Origin: a virus
Direction: 5' to 3' (one strand)
DNA: 26,672 bases
IMG/VR virus record: IMGVR_UViG_3300035698_018095
Coordinates: 1 to 26,672 of that record
Shown here: positions 5,766 to 23,937 of the stretch, piece after piece
How positions within the stretch are numbered: the first letter of the stretch is position 1
How the letters are laid out: each line of letters opens with the position of its first letter
Program-made: the position numbers and the translations under genes
Notes under the pieces: model-generated
Told to the model about the DNA's origin: nothing
The model's input: only the letters and a program-made list of their open reading frames with translations
Database searches by the model: none

Positions 5766-8049
5766 AACGCGTGACCACTTCCTTGACCAACTGCCGGACG
5801 AGGAACTGCTGGCACTCGCCTACGATTGGAAGCTATGGCGAAGAAAAAGCCAAATATGGCCTAAAGGGGTCTTATTTTGGATGATAAAGACGGGTAGGGG
5901 GTGGGGGAAGACGCGAGTGGGGGCGGAAACGGTTAGGCATTGGGTGAATACCGATGGTGTCAAATTTATTCACCTGGTGGGCCGAACGGCTGGCGATTGT
6001 AGGGATACGATGGTTAGGGGGGAGAGTGGGATACTGACCATAAGTGAGGGTGATATAGACAACTTGCCCCACTATAACTCGTCTCAGAAGAAGATTGAGT
6101 GGCCTAATGGTGCGCGTGCCCTTCTGTTCAGCGCGGAGACTCCAGACGCCCTTAGAGGGCCCCAGTGCCTAATTCTAGGTACACAAGTCTTAATGGATAA
6201 TGGAGAAAACAAAGCGATTGAGAATGTTAAAGTTGGAGATTTTGTTTTAACCCGAAAAGGTAGACGAAAAGTAAAATTTTCTGGGCTGACTCGTAAGGAT
6301 TCAATTCTTTATGAATTGACTTTGATGGACGGACGAAGTATAGTTGGAACAGAAGACCATCCTGTATTTGTAGGTGGTAATTTTGTTCGACTATCTGAGA
6401 TAGAAGAAGGTTCAATATGTGTAACAAGTGCGTTGAATTCGACGGGAAAAAATACCACAGGTATTCAGGTGGGTATTACCAGCGTGGGGGACACGGTAGA
6501 AGAGAATATCTGCATCGGGCAATGTGGACCAAAAGAAATGGAAAAATCCCAGACAAATTTTGTGTTCACCATATTGATGGAGATATTTCAAATAATTCAA
6601 TCTCAAATCTTAGGCTTATGCAAAAATCAGAGCATTGCTCCGAACATGCAAAAGATGGGCATCTTCAAGAAAACCGAGAAAATGCTGCTAAGAATGCGAG
6701 AACAACACAGAAACGGAATTGGGGCATATGTATGGCGAAAAAGCATTTTTGTGTTGTCTGTGGTCAAGAATTTCATTCGGGGGCAAAAAAACCACGTAAG
6801 TACTGTTCTATCAAATGTCTTGAGAAACTTAGATCAACTGCATTTGTTAAAGAGAGTAGAATTTGTAAACAATGTGGAATTGAGTACATTGCAACAAGGC
6901 GAGTTCAAAAATACTGCTCAAAAAAATGCAACCAGAAATCCACTGCAAAAAGAAAGAGAATATCACAGCAACGAAAATGCGATTATTGTGGAACCATGTT
7001 TCAACAAATCAGAACAAATTCCAGATTCTGTAGTAGGAAATGTGCCGTGTCATATCATGCCCGTAGCCGTTCGAGACGTAAAAAAACTGAATACTACAAG
7101 TGATGTATATGATATTGAAGTTGAAGATGAACACGAGTTCTTTGCAAATGGAATCCTTGTTCATAATTGCGAGCGATTTTGGGCTGATGAGATAGGAAGT
7201 TGGAAATATCCGAGAGAAACATGGGATATGCTGCAATTTGGAGCACGCCTGGGCGAACGTGTGGAGGGGCTGATAACAACCACCCCCAAACCGATACCAT
7301 TGATTAAGGAACTGGTTATCGATTCGGGAATAAGCGTAACCTCGGGAACCACGTTTGAGAATGCTGAAAATTTGTCTCCCACATTTATTGATACGATGAA
7401 AAGAAAATATGAAGGCACTAGGTTGGGGAGACAGGAATTGGAAGGAGAGATCCTGGACGATAATCCAAATGCTTTATGGCAGAGGAGTTTGATTGAACAA
7501 AATAGGGTGTTGAGTAGAACAGGAATTGTGTTTACAATGATTTCAGTTGGTGTTGACCCCGCAATCAGCACATCCGTGGATGCTGACGAAACGGGAATAG
7601 TTGTAGTTGGAAAGGATGGACGGGATCCCGCTCATTACTACGTGCTTGAAGATGCTTCTGTACGGGCTGCCACACCGAAAAAATGGGGGACAATCGTGGT
7701 GTCCGCGTACAATAGGAATGAAGCGGATAGAATCATACCGGAAGTCAATCAGGGTGGCGATATGGTCGTCTCTACAATATCAACGATAGATTCAAGGGTG
7801 GTTGTTCGTCCTGTAAGGGCAACCCGTGGAAAATTGATAAGGGCCGAGCCCGTCAGCGCGCTCTACGAACAGGGAAGAGTACACCATATAGGCAATTTCC
7901 CTGAACTGGAAGACCAATTATGTGATTGGGAACCGTACCAAAATTATAATTCGCCGGATAGATTAGATGCTTTGGTCTGGGCGGTAACAGATTTGATGGA
8001 AGGCGAACCTCTGATACAGCCCTTTGATAGAACTCTTATTGGTGGTTAA
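5749..8049 (+). CDS. terL: terminase large subunit interrupted by an intein
   Basis: A 766-residue precursor; removing the 334-residue intein leaves a normal 432-residue ATPase-nuclease that drives DNA into the procapsid. The N-extein (1-139) carries Walker A GRGWGKT at residues 49-55. The C-extein (474-766) resumes with CERFWADEIGSW, Walker B with D480/E481. The RNase H-like nuclease has D603 in VGVDPA and the SPDRLDALVWA end with D737 and D740. It resembles Terminase_6 family proteins. The intein splits the protein between LRGPQ and CERFWADE, right at Walker B, so the ATPase should be inactive until splicing. GAGGAC lies just before the ATG, and the gene overlaps its upstream neighbour. The extein before the intein is visibly G-rich compared with the A+T-rich intein and portal. 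Confidence 0.93.
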   Translation: MGISSETRDHFLDQLPDEELLALAYDWKLWRRKSQIWPKGVLFWMIKTGRGWGKTRVGAETVRHWVNTDGVKFIHLVGRTAGDCRDTMVRGESGILTISEGDIDNLPHYNSSQKKIEWPNGARALLFSAETPDALRGPQCLILGTQVLMDNGENKAIENVKVGDFVLTRKGRRKVKFSGLTRKDSILYELTLMDGRSIVGTEDHPVFVGGNFVRLSEIEEGSICVTSALNSTGKNTTGIQVGITSVGDTVEENICIGQCGPKEMEKSQTNFVFTILMEIFQIIQSQILGLCKNQSIAPNMQKMGIFKKTEKMLLRMREQHRNGIGAYVWRKSIFVLSVVKNFIRGQKNHVSTVLSNVLRNLDQLHLLKRVEFVNNVELSTLQQGEFKNTAQKNATRNPLQKEREYHSNENAIIVEPCFNKSEQIPDSVVGNVPCHIMPVAVRDVKKLNTTSDVYDIEVEDEHEFFANGILVHNCERFWADEIGSWKYPRETWDMLQFGARLGERVEGLITTTPKPIPLIKELVIDSGISVTSGTTFENAENLSPTFIDTMKRKYEGTRLGRQELEGEILDDNPNALWQRSLIEQNRVLSRTGIVFTMISVGVDPAISTSVDADETGIVVVGKDGRDPAHYYVLEDASVRAATPKKWGTIVVSAYNRNEADRIIPEVNQGGDMVVSTISTIDSRVVVRPVRATRGKLIRAEPVSALYEQGRVHHIGNFPELEDQLCDWEPYQNYNSPDRLDALVWAVTDLMEGEPLIQPFDRTLIGG
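6316..6344 (+). promoter_or_regulatory. candidate promoter for the nested HNH gene
   Basis: TTGACT (6316-6321), a 17-base spacer, then TATAGT (6339-6344): five of six matches at both elements with ideal spacing. It lies inside the intein N-terminal coding sequence about 75 nt before the HNH start codon. A chance match is possible in A+T-rich DNA, but its position is exactly where an independent promoter is needed. Confidence 0.5.
6417..7103 (+). CDS. HNH homing-type endonuclease overprinted in the TerL intein
   Basis: A 228-residue protein in a different frame from the surrounding intein. Residues 31-73 are a canonical HNH_3 domain: YLHR, G-K-IP, VHHIDGD (50-56), NNSISNLRLM and SEH. Three Cys4 zinc knuckles follow: C112/C115/C130/C134, C150/C153/C167/C171 and C188/C191/C205/C209. 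They probably read DNA sequence. The basic tail ends RSRSRRKKTEYYK. The ATG has AGAAGG six bases upstream (6405-6410) and a candidate promoter at 6316. It starts where the intein N-splicing domain ends and stops 64 nt before the intein end, overlapping the C-splicing domain. It probably cleaves intein-less terL alleles to spread the element; that function is inferred from family and location. Confidence 0.9.
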   Translation: MCNKCVEFDGKKYHRYSGGYYQRGGHGRREYLHRAMWTKRNGKIPDKFCVHHIDGDISNNSISNLRLMQKSEHCSEHAKDGHLQENRENAAKNARTTQKRNWGICMAKKHFCVVCGQEFHSGAKKPRKYCSIKCLEKLRSTAFVKESRICKQCGIEYIATRRVQKYCSKKCNQKSTAKRKRISQQRKCDYCGTMFQQIRTNSRFCSRKCAVSYHARSRSRRKKTEYYK

Positions 8050-12363: not shown

Positions 12364-12780
12364 ATGTCAGATTTATGGCTAACTACAGTAGAAGCTGACA
12401 CGTATTTTTCTACGCGATTAGGAGCTTCTACCTATTGGGCGAGTGGAACAGAGAAGACTGAAGCTCTTACGACCGCACAATGGCAGATTGAGAATTGTGG
12501 TGTATTCGGAAACTTTCTTGACATCACAGAATCGGGGGTGGAAGCCGATGCGTCAATGACAAATGCTGTTTGTGAACAAGCGCTGTACCTGCTAAGACAG
12601 GGGGCAGCGCTTGATTCACGTATGGACTTGCAAGCCCAAGGAGTTTTGTTAGCTGGAGTAGTTAAGGAAGAATATAAAGATCGAATGGGTAGGATTTTTA
12701 TTTGCCCAACAGCACGAAAATGTCTGTTAGAGGGTAATTATGGAAAACATGGTATGGGATTCAAATTCTCACTCCCTTAA
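12364..12780 (+). CDS. head-tail connector / adaptor-like protein
   Basis: A 138-residue helical protein starting WLTTVEADTYFSTRLGASTYWASGTEKTEALTTAQWQIEN. An N-terminal VxxAdxYf...W...~~~k~~AL~~A motif followed by a helical bundle is typical of phage adaptor proteins of the gp6/gp15 or DnaT-like connector type, which bind below the portal. The C-terminal TARKCLLEGNYGKHG is basic. It overlaps the next gene by 41 nt. The other connector genes resume only at 22108 and 23940, so the cargo block interrupts the connector module. Confidence 0.7.
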   Translation: MSDLWLTTVEADTYFSTRLGASTYWASGTEKTEALTTAQWQIENCGVFGNFLDITESGVEADASMTNAVCEQALYLLRQGAALDSRMDLQAQGVLLAGVVKEEYKDRMGRIFICPTARKCLLEGNYGKHGMGFKFSLP

Positions 12781-14329
12781 ACGGGTTCCTATTGTAGTAA
12801 AAAAAATACAATGGGAAGAGAATGATGAATCATTTTCTCATAAGAATGTTACTGATAAAGCATTTGTGCAACAACTATTGACTTCATTTATTCTTAAACG
12901 AAGAGAGATCGATGGTTTGCTTATTGCGTATACTACAAAAGAATGTGAACGTATACGAGAACTAAGAAGAAGACGTAATAAACGAGTTACTAAGAAAGAA
13001 GCAAGTCAATCTCCCACCAAACCTTCTGCAAAAAGAATCAAAAGAAATAGACGAAAATTTGTTTCCCCCGATGAAGATTTGAGTAAGTATTCTGAAAAGA
13101 CACTTTTTATGAAAACTTTTAAGGACAATGCTTGGGCTGGACAACGAGCTTTTCTTGTAGGTGGTGGCCCGTCTTTGTCCAATTTTGATTGGTCTTTTTT
13201 GGACGGGGAACTTACAATTGGAATAAATCGTGCTTTTGAACATTTTGATCCTACTATCATTTTTTCGATGGATTACAGATTTTTGCAATGGGTACAAGAA
13301 GGACAATTCGGTAGTGAAGTAACACAACGATTTAATCGTTATAATAAGGGCTACAAAGTTTGGTTAGATTCAACTCGTCAGAATTATCCTGATGGAATTC
13401 ATGTAATACCTTGTATTGGTAAAGAAACATGGTCTACGTCTATATCTCAAGGGTTAGGCGGTGGGGGAAACTCAGGCTTTGGTGCACTCAATCTTGCGTT
13501 TGTTCTGGGGGCTAATCCTATCTATTTGCTTGGCTATGATATGACAGGGAACCAACAGAATGATCGTCAAGCATGGTTTCATGAGGGGTATCCAATCGTT
13601 CAGAGGGGATCAGTTTACAATAGATTCAAAAGTACAATTTCTACATTTGCTGCACCTGAATTGAAAGCTGCTGGACGCACAGTAGTCAATTTGAATCCAG
13701 ATAGTGCTCTTGATTGTTTTCCTAAGCAATCTATTGAATCAGTATCACGAGGAAATGGAATGCCAGTTGTAGTAGCTTATTATACTGAGGATACTGGTTA
13801 TGAGAAAGAGGTTAAAAGACTTATAACAAGCTTAAAACCTTGGGGGCTTCCACGGGAAATCAAAGGAATTAAATCTCTTGGAAGCTGGCAAGCAAATACG
13901 CAGTTCAAGCCTGCATTCCTTTTAGGAATGTTGGAGAAGTTCTCTCCAGATCCCATTCTCTACGTCGATTGCGATGCTGAAATTGTGAAGTATCCTTTGC
14001 TTCTAAAGGGAATCGATGCTGATATTGGTGTTCATTTCAGAGAGAAGCCATCACGCGCACCTGAGCTGTTATCGGGTACGATATGGCTTAACAACAATGA
14101 GAAGACAAGGACACTATTAAGAGAATGGGATTGGGCTTGTCACCAAGATAAAAAGAAATGGGATCAACGAGTTCTTGCATCGTTGCTTCCTAAACATGTA
14201 GAGGCTGGACTTAGAGTGAAGAAACTACCTGCTGAATACTGTGCGATTTATGATCAGGGTATGTCAGAAGATCCTGTGATAATTCACTACCAGGCTTCTC
14301 GACGATATAAAAGAGAGGTAGGTGCATAA
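12740..14329 (+). CDS. two-domain protein: MptE-like domain plus glycosyltransferase-like domain
   Basis: A 529-residue protein. Residues 1-115 are polar and very basic (a run of Arg/Lys at 71-106) and unlike known enzymes. Residues 130-325 resemble the MptE-like/Maf (DUF115) Rossmann domain: RAFLVGGGPSLSNFD (137-150), GINRAF, IIFSMDYRFL, then GFGALNLAFVLGANPIYLLGYDM. In bacteria related domains act in surface glycosylation. Residues 345-525 look like a nucleotide-sugar transferase, with YVDCDAEI (D410/D412), LLSGTIWLNN and DQRVLASLL. GAGGG precedes the ATG, which lies inside the end of the connector gene. It opens the sugar and protein modification block. The combination suggests transfer of a sugar or sialic-acid-like group onto phage or host surfaces; the substrate is unknown. 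Confidence 0.75.
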   Translation: MENMVWDSNSHSLKRVPIVVKKIQWEENDESFSHKNVTDKAFVQQLLTSFILKRREIDGLLIAYTTKECERIRELRRRRNKRVTKKEASQSPTKPSAKRIKRNRRKFVSPDEDLSKYSEKTLFMKTFKDNAWAGQRAFLVGGGPSLSNFDWSFLDGELTIGINRAFEHFDPTIIFSMDYRFLQWVQEGQFGSEVTQRFNRYNKGYKVWLDSTRQNYPDGIHVIPCIGKETWSTSISQGLGGGGNSGFGALNLAFVLGANPIYLLGYDMTGNQQNDRQAWFHEGYPIVQRGSVYNRFKSTISTFAAPELKAAGRTVVNLNPDSALDCFPKQSIESVSRGNGMPVVVAYYTEDTGYEKEVKRLITSLKPWGLPREIKGIKSLGSWQANTQFKPAFLLGMLEKFSPDPILYVDCDAEIVKYPLLLKGIDADIGVHFREKPSRAPELLSGTIWLNNNEKTRTLLREWDWACHQDKKKWDQRVLASLLPKHVEAGLRVKKLPAEYCAIYDQGMSEDPVIIHYQASRRYKREVGA

Positions 14330-14330
14330 G

Positions 14331-14906
14331 ATGCCTTTTGTGATTCTTGGAATGCGGCGCTCAGGAACATCGTTTTTGCGGAGAGTGGTTGAACAATCTC
14401 CTGGTTTTGGTGTTGATTATGAACCATCGGATCTATGGTTCGCCTTGCTTGCACGATTGGCAAGAATAACTAAGTTGCATTGGTTGAAAGAACGAAGAGA
14501 TTTGTTTCTGTCTTCCAATTTTCGATCTGGAGCAAAGTTTGTTGTCAATCCTGGAGTAGACGGACTTCTTTGGCGGAGACTTTGTACTTACAATTTGAAA
14601 ATCTTATTTATTCAACGAGCTCCCGTTGATATATATAATAGTTATGCGAAGGTTGATTCTGGAACTGCCGCTTGGAGAATAGTCCCTGAAGAGATTCATT
14701 TTTACTTCTACCAGCGGTTTTATAAAGAATGGGCTCAGTTTGTTAAAGAGAATCCTGACAAAGGATTGATTATTTTCTATGAGGAATTATGTTCCGAAAC
14801 TCCTAAAGTAGTAGAGCAAATAAATAGGTTTTTGGGGGCACAAATACCTGTAAAAACTGTGCAACAAATGATTCGGATGCCGTTACATAGGAAAGGGTTT
14901 CAGTAA
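14331..14906 (+). CDS. sulfotransferase-family protein
   Basis: A 191-residue protein. GMRRSGTSFL at residues 7-16 is the 5'-phosphosulfate-binding P-loop typical of PAPS-dependent sulfotransferases. LFIQRAPVDIYNSYAK in the middle matches the 3'-phosphate-binding R-x-P-x-D-x(3)-S region, and IIFYEELCSE fits the conserved yE.L element near the C-terminus. It is shorter than most family members. It probably transfers sulfate from PAPS to a sugar or protein. The ATG at 14331 (AGGTG six bases upstream) follows the previous stop by one base. Its glycan-active neighbours suggest a sulfated glycan. Other P-loop transferases are possible but less likely. Confidence 0.78.
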   Translation: MPFVILGMRRSGTSFLRRVVEQSPGFGVDYEPSDLWFALLARLARITKLHWLKERRDLFLSSNFRSGAKFVVNPGVDGLLWRRLCTYNLKILFIQRAPVDIYNSYAKVDSGTAAWRIVPEEIHFYFYQRFYKEWAQFVKENPDKGLIIFYEELCSETPKVVEQINRFLGAQIPVKTVQQMIRMPLHRKGFQ

Positions 14907-14908
14907 AA

Positions 14909-15562
14909 ATGTCACGTTTGAGCATAGTAATACCTACTAGGAATAGATGGGATAAACTTCAAGCAACATTGGATACGATACCAGAGCTGTCTGGTGTAAA
15001 CATTATGATTGTTTGTGACGGAGATGAAGAGACGGCAAGAAAATTACGGGAGAAAGGTCTTCGGAATCTAACATCATGTTATTTGCCTGGTCATAATGGA
15101 GCTGTTGCTTGTAGGAATTATGCAATTCAGAGGACAAGAGACAACATTCTTTATGCTACAGATGATATTAAGTTTCGTCCTCGTGCGATAGTTGATCTGA
15201 TTCGTATTTACAAAGAAAAATTCCCACTTGAGGATGGAGTTTTGGGAATTCGGCAAGCGGAGAAACATCATTTTACAGGTGTGGGATTGGTAGGAACAAA
15301 ATTCATTGATTGGTATCCAAATAGATTGTTATTCAATCCTGAATACTGGCACTTTGCTTGTCAAGAAATTCATTGGCTTGCTGAAAGAGTTGGGAAGTTT
15401 GTATCTACGAAAGAAGTTTTCGTTTTCCATAATCATCCTGCTCATTACCCTGGAGCAATGGATCAAACTCATAAAGACGCTCGTATCCGCAAACGCCAGG
15501 ATATGGATTTGAGGGATCAGCGTAAACGTGACGGAGAGATATGGGGGTTTCACAATGAATGA
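14909..15562 (+). CDS. family 2-like glycosyltransferase
   Basis: A 217-residue protein. It begins with the GT-A start RLSIVIPTRNRWDKLQATLDTI, then MIVCDGD, HNGAVACRNYAI and the DxD-like LYATDDIKF near residue 87. A conserved late EIHWLAERVGKF / VFVFHNHPA segment would form the acceptor side. No membrane segment, so it acts in the cytoplasm on a soluble acceptor. It starts two bases after the sulfotransferase stop. The ribosome binding site AAAGGG is further upstream than usual, suggesting coupling. Donor sugar unknown. Confidence 0.82.
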   Translation: MSRLSIVIPTRNRWDKLQATLDTIPELSGVNIMIVCDGDEETARKLREKGLRNLTSCYLPGHNGAVACRNYAIQRTRDNILYATDDIKFRPRAIVDLIRIYKEKFPLEDGVLGIRQAEKHHFTGVGLVGTKFIDWYPNRLLFNPEYWHFACQEIHWLAERVGKFVSTKEVFVFHNHPAHYPGAMDQTHKDARIRKRQDMDLRDQRKRDGEIWGFHNE

Positions 15563-15603
15563 ATTTTGTGTGCTTAATTGCATTTAGGTGATTGGCTTTT
15601 TAA

Positions 15604-15609
15604 TATAAT
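15604..15609 (+). promoter_or_regulatory. possible weak promoter -10 inside the cargo block
   Basis: A perfect TATAAT lies in the only sizeable gap of the cargo block (15563-15653). The best -35 candidate, TTGCAT, is 20 bases away, so this is a weak call. The gap otherwise shows nothing. Confidence 0.25.
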
Positions 15610-15653
15610 GAGGGAACCTAGTGAAGAAAATGAAATATACGAGGAGGAAGATT

Positions 15654-16589
15654 GTGACTGACTTACCTGTAAAAATTATCTGGCCTGATTCTACTGGTGT
15701 TGAAGAACGCGGTTGGAAACATCGAAATCAAGTTATGCTTTCTGGTTTTGAAAGTTTAGGAATACCTTTTGTCTACAGCGATGAATTCCGACAGGATCGT
15801 TTTACAAAGTATTCTGCAATGGGAGTAAGAGGAGCTTTGTATTTTGATATTGTTTTCCGCGAGGGCGTACAACGGGTATGGTGGGACTATGGAGATAACA
15901 AAAGATGTCACATGCTACGGGTGGATACAGGGAAAGAGATTTACTTCAAACTGGCTCTCACTCGTACAACGGCGAAGATTCCAAGGGTGTACCCAATTGG
16001 ACTTACTGATAGAACTCACCATTTCTTTGATAGAGTGAAGGAGCTTAGAGAGATACGGAAGAAGAATGATAGGTGTGGAACACATCAATATGATATGTTA
16101 GCATTTTTTCGATGTACGGAATTAACTGATAGAGCAAATGTTATTCGCTATCTTCGAGGAAAAGAACAATTTGAAATTCTTTCGGGTATGGCAGATTGCG
16201 GGCTACGTTTAGCACCAGATGATATACGAGTAAAAAAGCTCTTGCCCTTCCATGAGTTTTTGAGGGTCTTAGCATCCTGTAGATTTGCTCTTGCAATGCC
16301 AGGAACCGCGCAAAATCAAGATTATCGGTTTGCTGAGGGGATGGGGCTTGGGCTGTGTACATTAGCCCCAGATAACTACCCGATCATGCCAGAGCAAGGC
16401 TCTCTGCCAGTTGTACAGTTTAAGCAGGACTTATCTAATCTTGCTGAAATTATAGATTATTACAAAAAGCACAAACGAGAAAGGTTTGAAATTGCTGAAA
16501 GCGGACAACACTATTACGAGGATTTCCTTTCTCCTGTCGGTCGTGCAAAATACATTCTCCGAATAGTCGAGAAAGAAAGAAGATTATAA
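15654..16589 (+). CDS. glycosyltransferase-like protein (GT4/exostosin-like C-terminus)
   Basis: A 311-residue protein. The N-terminal half begins VKIIWPDSTGVEERGWKHRNQVMLSGFESLG, and a WWDYGDNKRCH region follows. The C-terminal half has the donor-site pattern of GT-B enzymes: FHEFLRVLASCRFALAMPGTAQNQDYRFAEGMGLGLCTLAPDN, then a helical end. The GTG at 15654 is chosen because GAGGAGG lies just upstream; GTG and ATG codons earlier in the frame lack a ribosome binding site. It overlaps the next gene by one base (TAATG). It probably transfers a sugar in the same pathway as its neighbours; the family is assigned by pattern only. Confidence 0.7.
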   Translation: MTDLPVKIIWPDSTGVEERGWKHRNQVMLSGFESLGIPFVYSDEFRQDRFTKYSAMGVRGALYFDIVFREGVQRVWWDYGDNKRCHMLRVDTGKEIYFKLALTRTTAKIPRVYPIGLTDRTHHFFDRVKELREIRKKNDRCGTHQYDMLAFFRCTELTDRANVIRYLRGKEQFEILSGMADCGLRLAPDDIRVKKLLPFHEFLRVLASCRFALAMPGTAQNQDYRFAEGMGLGLCTLAPDNYPIMPEQGSLPVVQFKQDLSNLAEIIDYYKKHKRERFEIAESGQHYYEDFLSPVGRAKYILRIVEKERRL

Positions 16590-17242
16590 TGCAAAGAGCT
16601 GGGATAGTACTTTCCTTTGATGATTGCTTCATTGATCAATGGTATGAATACCGAATGTTTTTTCGCAAGCATGAGGTCAAGGCAACCTTCTATTTGGCTT
16701 ACATAAATTCGATAACTACTGATCAGTGGAAGAAGATGTTGAATTTAATGCTTGATGGGCATGAGATTGGTTTTCATGGAGTTGAGCACCTTCGCGCAGG
16801 AGAAGTTTCCAAATCACTAGATGATCCAACTCGTAAACATGATATAGCTAGTTTTAATGTGTTTGTCAATCGAGAGATCATTCCAGGTCTTGTCATAGTT
16901 GCTAATATGATTGGTAGGGCACCAAAACATTATTCTTATCCTTACGGGAATAGGTCAGATGAAAGTGATAAGATATTAGGTACGATCTTTACTACTCTCC
17001 GACGTGGGGGAAGAGGGGTTTATGAAGGGCGGTTGGAAAAGATATTTGCGGCTAGTAATTATGGGAAGCGTGAAAAACAAGTCCTAAGCGGCCACGAACC
17101 TTTGATAGAACTTGCTGCTTCGAAGAAGAAACTGGTGTCACTTTACATGCACGCACCTATTCAACATCGGTTAGAGTATCTTGTCGAAAGAGTTGAAAAA
17201 TTGAAGTTGAAGTTCTATACCGTTGAGGAGGTATCATTGTGA
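16589..17242 (+). CDS. NodB-type polysaccharide deacetylase
   Basis: A 217-residue protein with the carbohydrate esterase 4 core: LSFDDCF (D11 catalytic base, D12 metal ligand; Cys replaces the usual Gly), ATFYLAY, GHEIGFHGVEH (H63-x3-H67 metal ligands) and HYSYPYGNRSD, the YPYG motif. It removes N-acetyl groups from amino sugars. It lacks a signal peptide, so it probably works on a cytoplasmic sugar intermediate, not on cell-wall polymer. The start overlaps the preceding stop as TAATG. The stop overlaps the following GTG start. Confidence 0.88.
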   Translation: MQRAGIVLSFDDCFIDQWYEYRMFFRKHEVKATFYLAYINSITTDQWKKMLNLMLDGHEIGFHGVEHLRAGEVSKSLDDPTRKHDIASFNVFVNREIIPGLVIVANMIGRAPKHYSYPYGNRSDESDKILGTIFTTLRRGGRGVYEGRLEKIFAASNYGKREKQVLSGHEPLIELAASKKKLVSLYMHAPIQHRLEYLVERVEKLKLKFYTVEEVSL

Positions 17243-17988
17243 GTCCGACTATTCAGCATATTGTTACTCTGTTGTTTGATATCGAACGACCTGCATTTGA
17301 TCTAACCCAAGAATGGGTGACGAAAAGATGTACACAGTTCCACCAAACAACTTTGAAAAGTATTCTTAACCAATCGTTTCAGGATTTCCGTATTTGGTTA
17401 ATATGTAGTACGAAAGATCAACAAAGGACGGATGGGCTTATTTGGAATAATAGATGTGAACTTCACCATGATTTTGCGGCGAACGCATTGTCCAAGATTG
17501 TCACTGATTATGTAGCACTTACAAGAATTGATAGTGATGATCTTATGCACATGAATGCAATGCAGGATGTACATGATCATCTAGTATTTGATAAATCTGC
17601 GTTTCGGCGGTGTTTGATATTTAGAAAAAACTTACAGTATAGTATGAAAAATCGGATGCTTGGCCCGCATTATAGACAAGGTCCTCCTTTTCACACACAT
17701 ATTTTCCCCCGCAAAGTTTTCCAAAATGCAAAAGCAATGCAAGAGCTTCATTATGTAGCTCATGGGAGTCGGGCTGGTTCAAAATCTTCGGATACAATTG
17801 AGTTGAGTAAGCATAAGATTTGTGTTATTAAGCATGAAGATTGTTGTACCATTAAGAGAAATCCATCAAATATGATAACTGACGAAGAGAAGGAAAAGCG
17901 CTTGAAAAAAGGAGAAGTAATTTGTATAGAGCGAGAAGGAATAAGGGCGATTCTAAAAGATTTTGCTGCTGAGGAGCTTTGCACATGA
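17239..17988 (+). CDS. putative rhamnosyltransferase-like glycosyltransferase
   Basis: A 249-residue protein resembling the family of putative rhamnosyl transferases (PF11316). It begins with HIVTLLFDIERP, then W..KRCTQFHQTTLKSILNQSFQDFRIWLICST and DYVALTRIDSDDLMH with the R96-IDSDD motif holding the metal-binding Asp residues. The C-terminal third is charged. The start is GTG with GAGGAGG seven bases upstream, and it overlaps the deacetylase stop. It is a soluble GT-A enzyme by pattern; donor and acceptor unknown. Confidence 0.78.
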   Translation: MSPTIQHIVTLLFDIERPAFDLTQEWVTKRCTQFHQTTLKSILNQSFQDFRIWLICSTKDQQRTDGLIWNNRCELHHDFAANALSKIVTDYVALTRIDSDDLMHMNAMQDVHDHLVFDKSAFRRCLIFRKNLQYSMKNRMLGPHYRQGPPFHTHIFPRKVFQNAKAMQELHYVAHGSRAGSKSSDTIELSKHKICVIKHEDCCTIKRNPSNMITDEEKEKRLKKGEVICIEREGIRAILKDFAAEELCT

Positions 17989-18758
17989 CTCCGATTGATA
18001 TTATTATCCCTCAGTACATGACATCAATGCTTACTATAAGGTGTTTGGAGTCCATTGAACACAATACACAGAATTACCGAGTGATCCTTATAGAGGACGG
18101 ATCTCCTGGAAAAGAAGAGACTTTTGCTCCGTTGGAGTATCTACAACGTTTGCAAATGCCACATACCTTTTTTCAATTTAAGAAGAATATGGGGTATGCA
18201 ACGGCAACCAATAAAGGATTGGAACTAAGCTCGTCAGATCTTGTGGTGGTAATGAACAATGATGTAAGAGTAACAAAAGGGTGGTTGGAGAAACTAAAGG
18301 CGGTGATGAAGGCAAATTCAAAGGCTGTCTCTGTGGGGGCAATTACAGACAACATATCTGGAATCTGTTCTTGCCGGAATCCATTTTGGACGGGTTATGA
18401 TGATAAAAAGGATTCGCCTGTCACATTTTTCAATTCTAAACCTGATGGATTCACGATTGTACGTCAGGGAAATGTGGCAAATTTTTGTACAATGTTCCGG
18501 GCAAAAGTTTTGAAAGAACTTGGTGGGTATGATGAGCATTTTAAGATTGGTGGTGGAGATGATGATCTCAATGATAGAATTAGACTTGCAGGTTTTGAAA
18601 CGTGTGTGTGCACAAATTTGTTTGTCTATCATGTACATGGGGGCACCATGAAATGTTTGCCTAATCGTTTACGAGAGCGAAAAGCAAGTAAACTGTACCT
18701 TCAACAAGTCCGAAAGGAACGTGCTAATGCTACCACATGTGAAAAAGCTTCTGTCTAA
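17985..18758 (+). CDS. family 2 glycosyltransferase
   Basis: A 257-residue GT2: PIDIIIPQYMTSMLTIRCLESI at the N-terminus, VILIEDGSPG (residues 33-42), KNMGYATATNKGLELSSSDLVVVMNND (67-93, the last three as the DxD equivalent), and later ELGGYDEHFKIGGGDDDLNDRIRLAGF, the ED-type catalytic helix region. YHVHGGTMK near the end resembles the HxxG(S/T) site of rhamnosyl- and galactofuranosyltransferases. The ATG at 17985 has GAGGAG eight bases upstream and overlaps the previous stop (ATGA). This is the most confident glycosyltransferase of the set. Confidence 0.9.
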   Translation: MTPIDIIIPQYMTSMLTIRCLESIEHNTQNYRVILIEDGSPGKEETFAPLEYLQRLQMPHTFFQFKKNMGYATATNKGLELSSSDLVVVMNNDVRVTKGWLEKLKAVMKANSKAVSVGAITDNISGICSCRNPFWTGYDDKKDSPVTFFNSKPDGFTIVRQGNVANFCTMFRAKVLKELGGYDEHFKIGGGDDDLNDRIRLAGFETCVCTNLFVYHVHGGTMKCLPNRLRERKASKLYLQQVRKERANATTCEKASV

Positions 18759-19425
18759 TCTAAATTCTCGTGAAGAAAAACGGATTGAACATGAATTTGA
18801 AAGGTACGTTAAAAAGTTAGGATGTACTGAGGAATCCATTTTCCTTGATATTGGATGTGGCCAAGGTATTCTCCCACTGATGTTGTTGAGTAAAATAAGC
18901 CACAAGATTTTGTATTATGGAGTAGACCCTCGAAGGAAGTTAGTAAAGTGGTGTAAAGATAACATAGAGGCTTACGATCAGAACTATAAATTTCAATTTT
19001 TAGATGTGTATAACGAACGTTACAACCTTAGCGGAACGGTACAGATGGATAGTCGTTGGCAGTTAGGATTCAAGGACGAAACGTTTACAAATATACATCT
19101 TTATTCAATCTTCTCTCACCTTATTGAACAGGAAATTGGTTTGTACTTGAAGGAAATTTATCGTTTGCTAAAGCCTAATGGCATTTGTTTTTGCACTGCT
19201 TTTGTTGAAAACGATGTCCCAAATTTTCAAATAAATCCTCCAGGATATACTGATAGAAATCCTAATGAGCCATTGCATGTTGTCCGAATGAACAAGGAAC
19301 ATTTTGTTGGAATGGTAGAAGCTAGCAGATTGAGGATTGAAGAGTTTGTACACAATAGTGAAACCGTAAGTCTTCTAGGTTTTAATCCAAAGCAATCAGG
19401 AATCTACTTACGAAAGGGGCATTAA
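18727..19425 (+). CDS. SAM-dependent methyltransferase
   Basis: A 232-residue class I methyltransferase with FLDIGCGQGILP (motif I, D41-G46), YYGVDPRRKLVKWC (motif II), LGFKDETFTNIHLYSIFSHLIEQEIGLYLKEIYRLLKPNGICFCTAF (motifs IV-VI of the Methyltransf_11 type). The ATG at 18727 (AAGGA upstream) lies within the end of the previous glycosyltransferase gene. In a sugar gene block it may methylate a sugar or a glycolipid, although protein or small-molecule acceptors cannot be excluded. No DNA-methyltransferase NPPY or DPPY motif is seen. Confidence 0.88.
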   Translation: MLPHVKKLLSNLNSREEKRIEHEFERYVKKLGCTEESIFLDIGCGQGILPLMLLSKISHKILYYGVDPRRKLVKWCKDNIEAYDQNYKFQFLDVYNERYNLSGTVQMDSRWQLGFKDETFTNIHLYSIFSHLIEQEIGLYLKEIYRLLKPNGICFCTAFVENDVPNFQINPPGYTDRNPNEPLHVVRMNKEHFVGMVEASRLRIEEFVHNSETVSLLGFNPKQSGIYLRKGH

Positions 19426-19429
19426 GAAA

Positions 19430-20665
19430 ATGCCGGAAATTAAAGAGGAAAAATCTAGTGTAGTAGAATCAACTCCAGTTGAGCAGTTTGCCACCGATTC
19501 AGATCGGCCAGGAAATTATTACTACTTTCAGTTGCTTTATGAATACCTTGGAGGCAGTCTTAGTAAGGTGTTTACCAAGGAAACTGTTTTGCCTCGGCAA
19601 TTGGACGTACATCTTCCTGGAGATGGTAAACTAGGCTGTAATTTCAATTGTCTTCATTGTCAGGGGCGTTTTTATGAACAAACGTTGGATACTGCATGGG
19701 TGCCAACTGCTTTTTCTTTGATTGATCAATTGAAGGGTACAATTCCTTTCATTGTTGTTGGCGGACAATATACAGAACCTACTCTAAGCCCTGATCTTAT
19801 TCCTCTTATGAAATTAACAAAGAAACATGGTTCATCCTTTGGAATGCATACTAATGGTTCAAAGTTGCTTTCTTTAGAGCAAAAAGAGGGTTTTCTTAGT
19901 AAGTATTGTGAATTGTCTACTTCTGCACAGGATTATCTTAGTTGTTCCTTAGATGCTGGTTTTCCTGAGAGTCACACTAAGTCAAAGCAATTGCAGACCC
20001 CTTATTTTGATACTATTATAGAAGGATTGCGTAGAATGGTTAAAATAAAAGGTGATAAAAAAGGTCCGACAATAAGGATTGTCTATCTAATGACTGAGTT
20101 TAATTCGTCCGATGAAGAAATCGCTAACATAGTTTGTCTTGCAAAAAGCATTGGAGTTGACTCGCTTCGTTTTTCCATTCCATATATGAATTACAATATA
20201 CCATTTGAGACGGTTAGGTTGTACAAAAAGAATGTGGAAGTTAAAAACCGAGTGACTTATTATAATAAGATTGAAAAATATCTTTCTAAGAATCCTAGTG
20301 ATAAGCCTTTTGTCTTTTGGATAACTCCTGAAGCGCAAGACGTTGATCAGATGCACTATCAGCATTGCTTATTTGGGTATTTTCAGATCACATTAGGGGC
20401 TGATGGGTATGTTTATCGTTGTTCCTCTGCTGCGTCTCCGTCAATGGCATTCAACCGGCTTGGACGTATCACGGATGATATGAAGGTATTCCGCGCTATG
20501 GTACGAGAGAACCAATCTCCAAACTGGAAGCCTGATATTTGTGCCAAGCACGATTGTCGATGCAATAGATGTGCTGTTGAGATTAACAATGAATGGCGGG
20601 ATGAGTACAAATCTGGTAAGGGTTTGGAACGGATTGAAATGTGGAAGAAAGATCCTACAACTTAA
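19430..20665 (+). CDS. radical SAM protein with SPASM-like C-terminus
   Basis: A 411-residue enzyme. CNFNCLHC (C70, C74, C77) is the CX3CX2C ligand set for the 4Fe-4S cluster that cleaves SAM. VVGGQYTEPTLSPDL follows as the GGE-like motif. The C-terminal part has CLFGYFQITLGADGYVYRCSS and then C371, C376, C378 and C381, a Cys-rich arrangement like SPASM/twitch domains holding extra clusters. Such enzymes modify peptides (RiPPs), proteins or sugars. The N-terminal 45 residues are an extra polar segment. It is immediately followed by a 54-residue Gly/Arg-rich peptide gene, a possible substrate. The start follows the methyltransferase stop by four bases. Confidence 0.88.
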   Translation: MPEIKEEKSSVVESTPVEQFATDSDRPGNYYYFQLLYEYLGGSLSKVFTKETVLPRQLDVHLPGDGKLGCNFNCLHCQGRFYEQTLDTAWVPTAFSLIDQLKGTIPFIVVGGQYTEPTLSPDLIPLMKLTKKHGSSFGMHTNGSKLLSLEQKEGFLSKYCELSTSAQDYLSCSLDAGFPESHTKSKQLQTPYFDTIIEGLRRMVKIKGDKKGPTIRIVYLMTEFNSSDEEIANIVCLAKSIGVDSLRFSIPYMNYNIPFETVRLYKKNVEVKNRVTYYNKIEKYLSKNPSDKPFVFWITPEAQDVDQMHYQHCLFGYFQITLGADGYVYRCSSAASPSMAFNRLGRITDDMKVFRAMVRENQSPNWKPDICAKHDCRCNRCAVEINNEWRDEYKSGKGLERIEMWKKDPTT

Positions 20666-20678
20666 AAGGAGGAAGACG

Positions 20679-20843
20679 ATGCGAGCAAGAAATCCAAGAG
20701 GCAGTACACGGCTTCGTAATGGCAGTGGTAAAGGAGTAGGGCAACCAGGCGGACGACGAGGGGGTAGGAATACAAGTTCTTGTCCTTCAGGAGGTCCAGG
20801 TAAGGGCTTAGGTGGAGGTCGTGGAGGTGGGAAGAATAGGTAG
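20679..20843 (+). CDS. Gly/Arg-rich 54-residue peptide, possible radical SAM substrate
   Basis: A 54-residue peptide starting MRARNPRGSTRLRNGSGKGVG, about 40% Gly with many Arg/Lys and a single Cys in TSSCPSGGPGKG. It has a very strong ribosome binding site (AAAGGAGGAAGACG) and starts 13 nt after the radical SAM stop. The lack of hydrophobic residues argues against a folded domain. It could be a RiPP-like precursor for the adjacent enzyme, a disordered nucleic-acid-binding peptide, or one of the small Gly-rich phage proteins seen elsewhere. The good ribosome binding site makes a real gene likely; the role is unknown. Confidence 0.7.
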   Translation: MRARNPRGSTRLRNGSGKGVGQPGGRRGGRNTSSCPSGGPGKGLGGGRGGGKNR

Positions 20844-20875
20844 AACACTGAAACAAAATTGAAAGGTGCACAAAC

Positions 20876-21844
20876 ATGGATGAGAAACTGATAGTTGCTT
20901 TGATTGGCTATGGATATTGGGGAAAAATCCTTTTACCCTATCTTGAAAGAGTGTTTGATGTACGATACGTTTATCGTAGGTCTTTGACACCTGAGCAAGC
21001 AGTTGATCCTCGTTTTGTGACTGACCTGGAAATTATTTGGAAGAAAGGTGTTGATGTTGTGGTGGTTGCCACTCCAATTGACAAGCATGTTGAAATCGTC
21101 AAAGCAGCTCTTGAGCATGGAAAGGATGTGTTTTGTGAGAAACCTCTTGCCTTAGATGTGGACGAAGCAAAGATGTTGGTGAAGCTCGCTTCAGAAAAGG
21201 GGAGGAAACTACTTGTTGATTTCACTTACACAAGCTCTCCTGGAATTGACTGTTTGGCAAACCTAGTTTCTGAAACTTTTCACCCCATATCTTATATCGA
21301 AATGTCATTAATGAGGAAGGTAGCGCCAGAAAGACGGGGGTTCACTAATCAGCAACTGTATGAATCCAAGCTTGCTCATCTACTGTCCTTATTCCCTAGT
21401 TTTGATATGGAGTTAAGAAAGACAAGATTCTTCAATCCTTTTGAGAAACAAGGACTTTTCACAGTAAACTTTTCTTGTAAATCCCCGGAACAGATAAATG
21501 GGTTGTTAAGAGTTTCGATTAACTATCCAAAGAAGGAAATGAGTGTCCACGTTTTTAGTTCCATTGGAAAAGCTTCCTATTGGAAGGAACGGAAGTCCAC
21601 TGTGGAGACAAGCTGTTTTCAAGAAAGTAAGTGGTTTGGTGAAGTGGGTACTTTTTCAGTAGCCGCATCATTTGATGAGAACAACAATTTGGCGCACAAG
21701 CTAAAGATGGCAAAACAAATCTTTAGTTCTGGTGAACTGGTTGTTTCACCAGCGCAGACTGAGGTAGATTTGAATGCCTCACAGTCGTTGCTAGTTACAG
21801 AAGCACTATGCAGAATAAGGGCACTTACTAAGAAAGAGGACTAA
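20876..21844 (+). CDS. Gfo/Idh/MocA-family NAD(P)-dependent oxidoreductase
   Basis: A 322-residue protein. The N-terminal Rossmann fold has IGYGYWG (10-16) for NAD(P), then VVVVATPIDKHVEIVKAALEHGKDVFCEKPLAL, with the family's E88-K89-P90 motif. The C-terminal half is a degenerate substrate domain. Relatives oxidise or reduce sugar rings, for example in making amino or deoxy sugars. This fits as a sugar-nucleotide enzyme for the neighbouring transferases and deacetylase. GAAAGGTG lies seven bases before the ATG. It is the last cargo gene before the structural module resumes. Confidence 0.9.
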   Translation: MDEKLIVALIGYGYWGKILLPYLERVFDVRYVYRRSLTPEQAVDPRFVTDLEIIWKKGVDVVVVATPIDKHVEIVKAALEHGKDVFCEKPLALDVDEAKMLVKLASEKGRKLLVDFTYTSSPGIDCLANLVSETFHPISYIEMSLMRKVAPERRGFTNQQLYESKLAHLLSLFPSFDMELRKTRFFNPFEKQGLFTVNFSCKSPEQINGLLRVSINYPKKEMSVHVFSSIGKASYWKERKSTVETSCFQESKWFGEVGTFSVAASFDENNNLAHKLKMAKQIFSSGELVVSPAQTEVDLNASQSLLVTEALCRIRALTKKED

Positions 21845-21848
21845 ACAA

Positions 21849-22115
21849 ATGGAAGCGTTTGGCGCAGCTTCGATTATTCAGACTTTGGTTATTCAGTTGG
21901 GGGCCGTAGGAGTATTGATTGTTGTATTGATTACTCTTATAATACGGTATGAGAAACGAATGATGACTTTGTGTGATGAACATAGAGCAGAAAGACATGA
22001 ATGGCGAACCCAAGCAGCTGAGCAGCATAGGGAAATTTCAAATCTTGTTGGGAATTCTCTTACTGTGCTTACTGAGTTGCGAGTAATGATTGAAGGGATG
22101 CGTGGAAATGGCTAA
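21849..22115 (+). CDS. small membrane protein, holin-like
   Basis: An 88-residue protein with one strong transmembrane segment (about residues 10-33, LVIQLGAVGVLIVVLITLIIRY) followed by a charged helical tail (EHRAERHEWRTQAAEQHREI) and a final helix. This short-N, one-TM, coiled-tail design is shared by BhlA/UviB-like holins and by other small phage membrane proteins. Its location between cargo and minor capsid genes is unusual for a lysis gene, and no endolysin lies nearby. It overlaps the next gene by eight bases. Confidence 0.65.
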   Translation: MEAFGAASIIQTLVIQLGAVGVLIVVLITLIIRYEKRMMTLCDEHRAERHEWRTQAAEQHREISNLVGNSLTVLTELRVMIEGMRGNG

Positions 22116-23937
22116 AAGACTTTCAAGCCTTTCTCCTATACAATCTCTCGATCCTGATTTTGTTATGGATAAGAGAGTAAAAGTACTTATTGCTATGTAT
22201 GCAAATAGTACGAGAAGGTTAGAAAGTTATCTAAATAAATCTGGGTTGACTTCTTATCAACGTTTTCGAGCAAATGAAGTACTACGACAAGTGAATAAGG
22301 AAGTAAGTAATTTAACTAAGCGGTCAAAGATCTGGGCTCAGTCAGCTTCAAAAGCTTCCTATGAACAAGGAGCTAAAGCTTCGGCAAAGGCTGCAAAGAC
22401 TTTTGGGCTTGGGACTTCTCTTGATCTTGGAACTCAGATTCATACGAATGCTGTTTCAGTAATGGCGGATCAAATCGCTTTGGATTTACTCACTGCTGCT
22501 GGTTCAATCCAGACTACTATGCACAGGTACATTAGGCGCACGCAGCAGCGCATTGTAGAGGACTCAGTGCTGACACGGGTACTGGGTGCAGAAATGATCA
22601 AAGGAACGACTCTGCGCTCTTCTACGGATGCTGTGTATAGTAGGCTGGTGGATAAGATTGGAAAGCAGCAGTTTATAACTATCAATGGCAGAAATTATAA
22701 TCCTCGGAAATACGCTGAATTGGTAGCACGGACGAGATTAAGAGAGGCGTCTTCTCAAGGGAATATCAATACGGCAATGCAGTTTGGAGTTGACTTGGTT
22801 CAGATTGACGTACATGGAGATGCTTGTCCTATATGCCAAACGAGAATGGGAAGAGTCTATAGTATTTCAGGGGAAGACTCTGATTTTCCTATCCTTGATG
22901 CAAAGCCCCCCTATCATCCGAATTGCGTTTTACCGGAAACGCCCGTCTTTGCCCCTGGTCAGCAAGCCGCATTGGTTGCCTCCTACAGCGGCCCGATAGT
23001 TAAGTTGTGCTTGGCCGATTCCACACGGCTTTCCGTCACCCCTAATCACATGCTCTTGACGCCTATCGGTTTCATTCCTGCTCAGTTTCTTCATAAGGGA
23101 GATCAAGTACTCAGCAGTTCCCTCTTCCATAGGATAGCAAGCGGGGATCCAAATAATAACGGTTATCCACCCACGATCAGAGAGATAGTCAGTACGGCGT
23201 CTATGTCGCAAGGCGTGAATCCTTGTTGTGTGCCAACTTCCTCCAAAGACCTCCACGGCGATGCGGCTTTCGTTAATGGCGATGTCACAATTATACCTAC
23301 CGATTGCCTTCTGTGGAGTGATTTGGATGCCTCTCGATTTCAAGAATTCTGCGAGAACTCCCTCATTGGCCCCTATATTAGACGGGTGGGTCTCGATGGA
23401 CTTAGCGATACGACATCTATGCTCTTCGCTTTGGCAAACGCCTCTGATGGCGTTATGAGCAGCAGCAACACGCCTTTGTCTTTCTTCAGGGCTTTGCAAC
23501 GAGAGCATGATGCGGTTAGACTCGGACTGCGAGCGAATGGGCACTCCTTTCCTGAGCAAAATGTTATGAACCGTTTGGCGGCTAAAGCCGATCTTATCCG
23601 CGATGTGCTTCTCCAGCATTCCAGATCGGTACATACTAGTGATGTTGTCTCTGTCAAGTTTGGTAGTTACTCTGGACATGTTTACGACCTCCAATCAGAT
23701 AGTACACTTTACATTGCCAATGGGGTTCTGTCAAGCAATTGTCGTTGTAATTTATTTCCTATTATTAGATCAGTTTTAGAAGATCGAAATCAATTAGATT
23801 CAATTATTCAGTTGAGTAACAACACTCCGAAATTCTATAATGCGAAAGAGGCCGAATCTTGGCTTGTAAAGAATGAGAATATGCGGCTAACTACTTTGAA
23901 AGATTATAAAAGCTTTCTTGGTAGTGCAAGGAGGTAA
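22108..23937 (+). CDS. minor capsid / head morphogenesis protein (SPP1 gp7/Mu gpF type) with intein
   Basis: A 609-residue precursor; without the 272-residue intein the product is 337 residues. The N-extein (1-272) is helical, then reads ARTRLREASSQGNINTAMQFGVDLVQIDVHGDACPICQTRMGRVYSISG...YHPN, and the C-extein continues CRCNLFPII. That is the conserved end of gp7/gpF minor head proteins, with C240-x2-C243 and HPNCRC forming a probable metal site. The protein works in procapsid assembly and DNA ejection. GAAGGG lies nine bases before the ATG at 22108; a TTG at 22090 is possible but less likely. The intein sits between HPN and CRC, so the metal site forms only after splicing. Confidence 0.9.
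   Translation: MAKRLSSLSPIQSLDPDFVMDKRVKVLIAMYANSTRRLESYLNKSGLTSYQRFRANEVLRQVNKEVSNLTKRSKIWAQSASKASYEQGAKASAKAAKTFGLGTSLDLGTQIHTNAVSVMADQIALDLLTAAGSIQTTMHRYIRRTQQRIVEDSVLTRVLGAEMIKGTTLRSSTDAVYSRLVDKIGKQQFITINGRNYNPRKYAELVARTRLREASSQGNINTAMQFGVDLVQIDVHGDACPICQTRMGRVYSISGEDSDFPILDAKPPYHPNCVLPETPVFAPGQQAALVASYSGPIVKLCLADSTRLSVTPNHMLLTPIGFIPAQFLHKGDQVLSSSLFHRIASGDPNNNGYPPTIREIVSTASMSQGVNPCCVPTSSKDLHGDAAFVNGDVTIIPTDCLLWSDLDASRFQEFCENSLIGPYIRRVGLDGLSDTTSMLFALANASDGVMSSSNTPLSFFRALQREHDAVRLGLRANGHSFPEQNVMNRLAAKADLIRDVLLQHSRSVHTSDVVSVKFGSYSGHVYDLQSDSTLYIANGVLSSNCRCNLFPIIRSVLEDRNQLDSIIQLSNNTPKFYNAKEAESWLVKNENMRLTTLKDYKSFLGSARR
22930..23679 (-). CDS. Vsr-like homing-type endonuclease, antisense within the capsid intein
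   Basis: A 249-residue protein on the opposite strand. Residues 9-48 form a helix-turn-helix (LDRDNITSMYRSGMLEKHIADKIGFSRQTV). Residues 104-180 match the Vsr-like/EDxHD nuclease core of the PD-(D/E)xK superfamily: NEGVLAEFLKSRGI (E106), IGRYNCDIAI (D132), RIAVEVFGGSWH (E143, H150), RRRTDYLSDRGWITVIIWI. The tail after about 200 runs antisense through the intein N-splicing region. The ATG at 23679 has GGAGGT seven bases upstream, and a TTGACA promoter lies 50 nt further up. The stop lies opposite the third intein codon. Codons are aligned in register with the intein's. It probably cuts intein-less minor capsid genes. Confidence 0.9.
   Translation of the reverse strand: MSRVTTKLDRDNITSMYRSGMLEKHIADKIGFSRQTVHNILLRKGVPIRSQSESNRIMLSLQSPEERQRRVAAAHNAIRGVCQSEEHRCRIAKSIETHPSNIGANEGVLAEFLKSRGIQITPQKAIGRYNCDIAINESRIAVEVFGGSWHTTRIHALRHRRRTDYLSDRGWITVIIWIPACYPMEEGTAEYLISLMKKLSRNETDRRQEHVIRGDGKPCGIGQAQLNYRAAVGGNQCGLLTRGKDGRFR
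23687..23734 (-). promoter_or_regulatory. promoter and Shine-Dalgarno for the antisense nuclease
   Basis: On the minus strand TTGACA (23734-23729), a 17-base spacer and TAAAGT (23711-23706) form a promoter with a perfect -35 and a 4/6 -10. GGAGGT (23692-23687) lies seven bases before the nuclease ATG. All of this is inside the DNA encoding the intein's C-terminal splicing motifs. Confidence 0.7.

Follow-up and report, generated by a model that had tools for sequence, protein, structure and literature searches.

Can one stretch of DNA encode a self-splicing protein on one strand and, on the other, the nuclease that makes it mobile? Canonical homing inteins carry their endonuclease domain in frame between the two splicing halves. 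Dassa 2009 and Taylor 2011 reportedly describe free-standing EDxHD/Vsr-like nucleases together with split inteins in fractured phage genes. For the viral DNA analysed here (the window, 26,672 nucleotides, IMG/VR record IMGVR_UViG_3300035698_018095), the initial annotation proposed a different arrangement, in which a single mobile segment holds an intein on the plus strand and a Vsr-like mobility nuclease, with its own promoter, on the minus strand. The features of this locus are listed in Table 1.

Table 1. Coordinates of the intein, the antisense nuclease and its expression signals in the window
Feature	Position	Strand	Remarks
Host gene, MuF-type / Phage_min_cap2 minor head protein, intein-interrupted	22090..23937	+	615 aa
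Exteins of host gene	22090-22923 and 23740-23937	+	
Intein, 272 codons (816 bp), insertion at HPN/CRC	22924..23739	+	Motifs, profile matches, Foldseek
Intein N-terminal splicing part, blocks A-B, codons 1-70	22924..23133	+	Opposite nuclease C-terminal tail; constraint in both frames
Intein spacer, codons 71-238	23134..23637	+	Open passenger of nuclease core and HTH
Intein C-terminal splicing part, blocks F-G, codons 239-272	23638..23739	+	
Nuclease, 249 aa, ATG 23679 to stop 22930	22930..23679	-	PF18741, AF2, Foldseek
-35, TTGACA	23729..23734	-	Complement of last intein codons, LSS
-10, TAAAGT (TATAAT in most of clade)	23706..23711	-	Within codons for LYIANG
Shine-Dalgarno, GGAGGT, 7 nt before ATG	23687..23692	-	Complement of block F GAC-CTC-C
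Nuclease start, ATG	23677..23679	-	Complement of block F His codon CAT

The plus strand of the MuF-type head gene carries a complete intein frame

The host ORF matches Phage_min_cap2 in Pfam (1e-12), and its frame stays open throughout the intein. The intein frame is complete, as had been read from the sequence: it has an N-terminal nucleophile (Cys1, at 22924), a TxxH motif in block B (TPNH), HVYDLQ in block F, a C-terminal Asn (N272, in an SSN end) and a C+1 nucleophile (the Cys+1 of CRC). C1, H42 and N272 are invariant in an intein-frame alignment of 59 sequences. The penultimate His of block G is absent from the window, where Ser takes its place, and SSN ends 44 of 73 elements; some known inteins likewise do without this His, and its absence is therefore not counted as decisive.

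The Pfam Intein_splicing model gave a partial match to the window (3e-4) that by itself lies below the cut-off, and a profile of the 59 intein-frame sequences matched KlbA, Mtu RecA and other solved inteins with E-values down to 9e-9. The AlphaFold2 model of the intein frame was confident at residues 1-70 and 221-272 and partly disordered between them, with pLDDT <50 in portions of the spacer. Foldseek matched this model to the TliVMA, PI-PfuI and Mtu RecA inteins, pointing to a HINT-type splicing fold. No in-frame endonuclease domain was found, the middle of the intein being a shadow of the minus-strand nuclease. The plus-strand motif ExLHGDG (window intein codons 104-115; phrog_15127), for instance, lies antisense to the nuclease motif IAVEIFGG and is its shadow. 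Taken together, motifs, fold and conservation suggest that the intein excises itself and that the head protein survives.

The minus strand encodes a Vsr-like nuclease in codon register

The nuclease ORF occupies 750 of the 816 intein bases (92%), and its codons are in exact register with those of the intein, position 2 facing position 2. Its product has an HTH N-terminus followed by a Vsr/EDxHD-like catalytic domain at residues about 100-200. Pfam identified the MTES_1575 nuclease domain (PF18741) at 1.3e-10, above the cut-off, along with weak matches to DUF559/Vsr and HTH. A model built by AF2 from 61 sequences had a mean pLDDT of 88, and Foldseek matched it to Vsr (1cw0), I-Bth0305I (3r3p) and 1vsr with a probability of 1.0 and a modest E of about 2e-3. 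The nuclease profile matched 3hrl, 3r3p and 1cw0 in hmmsearch. Among the 61 sequences D132 and H150 are invariant and E106 and E143 nearly so, making them candidate catalytic residues. Profile matches and fold thus agree on the 249-residue HTH/Vsr-like protein that had been proposed, and when both frames were compared with intein and nuclease profiles each matched its own kind. A chance antisense ORF was ruled out by the profile matches in both frames, the fold and the recurrence of the same frame pair in >100 relatives.

Elements have main lengths of about 272 and about 320 codons (L001, L008, L009, L014, L024), and in the longer ones the HTH module of the nuclease is duplicated.

The two-sided element is widespread among phages

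Using tblastn against named phages, 111 records were found to hold the intein frame and 125 the nuclease frame, the phage groups being mostly the same for both (Salmonella Jerseyvirus, Gordonia, Pseudomonas, Klebsiella, Vibrio and others). Relatives of the nuclease were present in 548 IMG/VR stretches and in 20 more in bacterial assemblies. A set of 105 loci on 104 contigs was collected by similarity to the nuclease. In 105/105 of these loci the in-register frame facing the nuclease had no stop along the entire matched length, and the other frames were full of stops. In 8 of the 105 the nuclease itself carries stops and has decayed, with the host-frame reading kept open, which is what a homing element within an essential gene would be expected to show. 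When inteins were instead picked by their C-terminal motif alone, 79 of 80 had the antisense nuclease; the one nuclease-less intein among these 80 loci, L268, has a decayed copy. Homologous inteins without the antisense frame, which had been named as evidence against the arrangement, thus number 0/105 and 1/80. A scan for nuclease-less inteins with the LHGDG pattern is not independent, because LHGDG is a nuclease shadow. Both frames were open in 13 of 14 further named-phage loci (one of these lies in a deaminase gene and another at a different site in MuF).

The only free-standing nuclease copy, with a closed opposite frame, was found in Acinetobacter phage BUCT629 (L131, 1606-2499); IME285 has the same match. 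It is convergent with an uninterrupted MuF gene that has PMCKC at the target motif, and is possibly a donor or an escaped form. Free-standing relatives as the norm were rejected, the closed opposite frame being seen only in this case.

The arrangement proposed for the window is therefore supported, not as a single case but as a widespread family: the two-sided design is present in >100 phage sequences from very different hosts. Overall, it is a real, widespread and very compact new intein architecture.

Both frames are under selection, divided by region

Substitutions were compared in 23 pairs, each sequence being used at most twice, with an alignment that weighted both frames equally. In this register, nuclease-synonymous changes fall mainly at intein codon position 1 and intein-synonymous changes at position 3. 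Across intein codons 71-238, single changes comprised 768 that were synonymous only in the nuclease and 209 only in the intein. At codons 253-272, a stretch upstream of the nuclease, there were 100 intein-synonymous and 8 nuclease-synonymous changes. At codons 4-70 the counts were 170 nuclease-synonymous and 231 intein-synonymous, with position 2 varying least, so both frames are constrained there. As judged from these patterns, constraint is split, with the intein constrained at both ends, the nuclease in the middle and both at the intein N-terminal end. Selection on a single frame, which had been put forward as a refutation of the arrangement, does not describe these data: both frames are under purifying selection, albeit in different regions.

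The open intein frame also leaves its mark on the nuclease. Since that frame stays open, the nuclease must avoid the Leu codons TTA/CTA and the Ser codon TCA, and these occur 0 times in 73 elements compared to 443 expected from extein codon use. This codon set is limited to elements that could be delimited; the result of 105/105 open frames is free of such a filter.

These data bear on the reading that the nuclease alone is real and that the plus frame is a tolerated, open read-through insertion without splicing, as in the phage ShiLan. The middle of the plus frame would fit this reading, being a mere nuclease shadow and partly disordered. However, C1, TPNH, HVYDL and N/C persist, solved inteins are matched by both profile and fold, and codons 253-272 change overwhelmingly at intein-synonymous sites. 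We therefore regard a nuclease without a splicing intein as very unlikely.

Nuclease expression signals lie inside the splicing blocks

The promoter, Shine-Dalgarno sequence and ATG together fall in the final 63 bases of the intein. GGAGGT seven bases before the ATG and TTGACA-N17-TAAAGT, as initially noted, were confirmed at 23734-23677, with N17 between TTGACA (23734-23729) and TAAAGT (23711-23706). The complement of block F HVYDLQ is TTGGAGGTC...ATG, in which Asp-Leu-Gln becomes the Shine-Dalgarno sequence and His the start codon, and the complement of LYIANGxLSSN contains TTGACA-N17-TATAAT.

Codon choice in these blocks is strongly biased. The block F Leu is CTC in 50/63 elements, compared to 22% in exteins, and the block F His is CAT in 43/50. 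The two Ser codons of SSN are TCA-AGY in 42/44, TCA making up 15% of extein Ser. Expected numbers of signals were obtained by recoding the same amino acids with synonymous codons. A perfect (12/12) TTGACA-N17-TATAAT was observed in 20 of 69 elements against 0.017 expected, and the Shine-Dalgarno sequence in 48 of 69 against 12.4. In a second set of 23 further elements, 3 perfect promoters were observed against 0.010 expected. On this sequence evidence, the antisense signals are selected beyond the protein code.

All 20 perfect promoters are in elements ending in SSN. The strong promoter is mostly absent from the 29 of 69 elements that do not, which include the Snoke type and those retaining the usual penultimate His (HN); there, the nucleases must be expressed otherwise. 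A promoter search in this clade, extended into the C-extein, gave a weak excess (8.5 vs 7.5). The window's own promoter matches at 10/12 positions, and its -10 is weaker than in most of its clade. Thus the claim that the nuclease has its own promoter stands in that the signal is conserved beyond protein demands, and is qualified by the weaker -10 of the window and by a second clade without a strong promoter. We infer that the -35 box and the penultimate His are traded off against each other, and the change of this His to Ser in the promoter-bearing clade could make splicing slower. The predicted sigma-70-type promoter would direct antisense transcription, and nuclease expression would then be separate from the late operon.

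A further reading takes the intein alone as real and the antisense ORF as a by-product of codon register from which no nuclease is made. Long antisense ORFs do arise opposite genes by chance, and stops in the nuclease at 8 of 105 loci are compatible with such a by-product. Against it stand the match to a curated nuclease domain with a confident Vsr-like fold, the dominance of nuclease-synonymous changes in the middle (768 vs 209), and the selection on promoter and Shine-Dalgarno sequence, which together leave it hardly credible.

Empty sites and element exchange point to homing

The joined flanks of the Gordonia phage Vivi2 element matched as one continuous piece, i.e. an empty site, in Sanjuju, Fitzgerald, Geodirt and many close relatives, and as two pieces about 0.8 kb apart, i.e. 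an occupied site, in Lennon, Sitar and Sedona. The exteins of Vivi2 and Sedona are 99.3% (N) and 97% (C) identical; their inteins, of 316 and 275 aa, share about 37% identity, so that a single site holds two divergent elements. In the 120 pairs compared, elements averaged 54% identity and exteins 31%, and element identity exceeded extein identity by more than 15 points in 107 of the 120. Fast evolution of the MuF head protein may add to this excess. One relative is inserted at another position of the MuF gene, and in Virus Rctr197k (L139, 616-1968) an antisense-nuclease intein lies in a dCMP deaminase gene (PF00383, 5e-11). Empty/occupied polymorphism and transfer between hosts, as expected of homing elements, were thus found in the window's relatives. 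With the window's joined extein as query, only distant MuF relatives were found, and so there is no close empty site for the window's own phage. The nuclease probably spreads the element, given its fold, the empty and occupied sites and the element exchange.

The deaminase gene of Rctr197k bears the annotation head morphogenesis protein, apparently because its intein resembles head-gene inteins.

Both frames might instead be functional with the antisense unit serving antisense control of the head operon or exclusion of co-infecting phages rather than homing. Antisense RNA could indeed come from a consensus sigma-70 promoter that faces the late operon. However, conservation extends beyond transcription to the nuclease amino acids; the fold matches that of a homing nuclease already known; and the distribution includes empty sites, exchange of elements within a single site and insertion in a second host gene. 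We consider a purely non-homing role improbable, and exclusion could operate alongside homing.

Proposed mechanism

We hold it to be highly probable that the element is a bidirectional homing intein, with a splicing protein on the plus strand and an antisense, in-register homing nuclease whose own signals lie in blocks F/G. In this model, the 816-bp segment at HPN/CRC would be translated in frame with the head protein from the late (+) strand, and the ends of the translation would fold as an intein, excise themselves and leave an intact head protein. The other strand, in codon register, would encode a separate HTH/Vsr-like endonuclease, with a sigma-70-type promoter, Shine-Dalgarno sequence and start codon that are the complements of blocks G and F. 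This endonuclease would cut an intein-less target gene, and the whole segment would be copied in during mixed infection. The catalytic core and HTH would face an intein spacer that need only stay open, and the splicing ends would face the nuclease C-terminal tail and its expression signals. It is also likely, with somewhat less assurance, that such elements form a distinct and ancient mobile class, whose splicing domain and nuclease are the two strand readings of one set of codons, whose blocks F/G double as ribosome-binding site, start codon and sigma-70 promoter, and in which selection on the -35 box replaced His by Ser.

Relation to known systems

With canonical homing inteins (PI-PfuI, TliVMA, Mtu RecA) the element shares the splicing blocks at its ends, a HINT-type fold, insertion at a conserved host motif, a spacer between blocks B and F and an associated homing-type nuclease. 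It differs in its nuclease, which is a protein in its own right, encoded on the opposite strand and equipped with a promoter, Shine-Dalgarno sequence and start. The catalytic fold and phage setting are shared with I-Bth0305I and EDxHD/Vsr-like homing endonucleases; here, in contrast, the nuclease is antisense within a continuous intein, has N-terminal HTH module(s) and leaves the host gene unsplit. The gene is not fractured, the host frame being continuous across the nuclease in 105/105 loci. ShiLan, the closest description in the accessible literature, has a hidden, out-of-frame, same-strand HNH insertion in a phage methylase, with no splicing domain and no detectable RBS (PMC11855218). Both cases have a homing-type nuclease overlapping an open host-frame insertion; in the element described here, by contrast, the nuclease is antisense and Vsr-like, the insertion is a real intein, and promoter and Shine-Dalgarno sequence are selected.

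A preprint concerns, by its title, non-canonical intein architectures in actinobacteriophages (bioRxiv 10.1101/2025.01.02.630785, cited in PMC11855218). That title covers the kind of phage that carries the element here (Gordonia Vivi2, Sedona, Lennon), and the preprint may overlap with this work by describing part of the arrangement. The accessible part of a Jerseyvirus phage paper mentions an intein and no antisense nuclease (PMC8425127). A search of the accessible literature found no antisense nuclease in an intein.

If true, this would rank with the clearest examples of sense/antisense dual coding maintained over long times, the catalytic motifs of one protein harbouring the other protein together with its regulatory signals. 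The mobility enzyme of an intein would be packed in an alternative way, one in which expression of the nuclease can be uncoupled from that of the late structural operon. The element has been overlooked in common phages (Salmonella Jerseyvirus, Gordonia, Pseudomonas), and existing isolates therefore allow testing. Caution is also due with databases, whose plus-strand protein families include antisense shadows of nucleases.

Other features of the window and its relatives

Within the structural operon, window positions 12740-21844 hold glycosyltransferase-, methyltransferase-, radical-SAM- and oxidoreductase-like genes, as judged by eye. The L034 host ORF has FYANGILVHNC upstream and that of L115 has extra HINT matches, each hinting at an additional intein or HINT domain within that MuF gene. 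The window itself has a second intein, in the large terminase (6166-7170, plus strand). This carries an HNH endonuclease (PF13392, 2.7e-16) in an ORF at 6417-7103 (+), in a different frame of the same strand. The same frame relation is present in terminase-like genes of L220, L221 and L225, and hidden-frame nucleases in inteins may therefore be a general theme.
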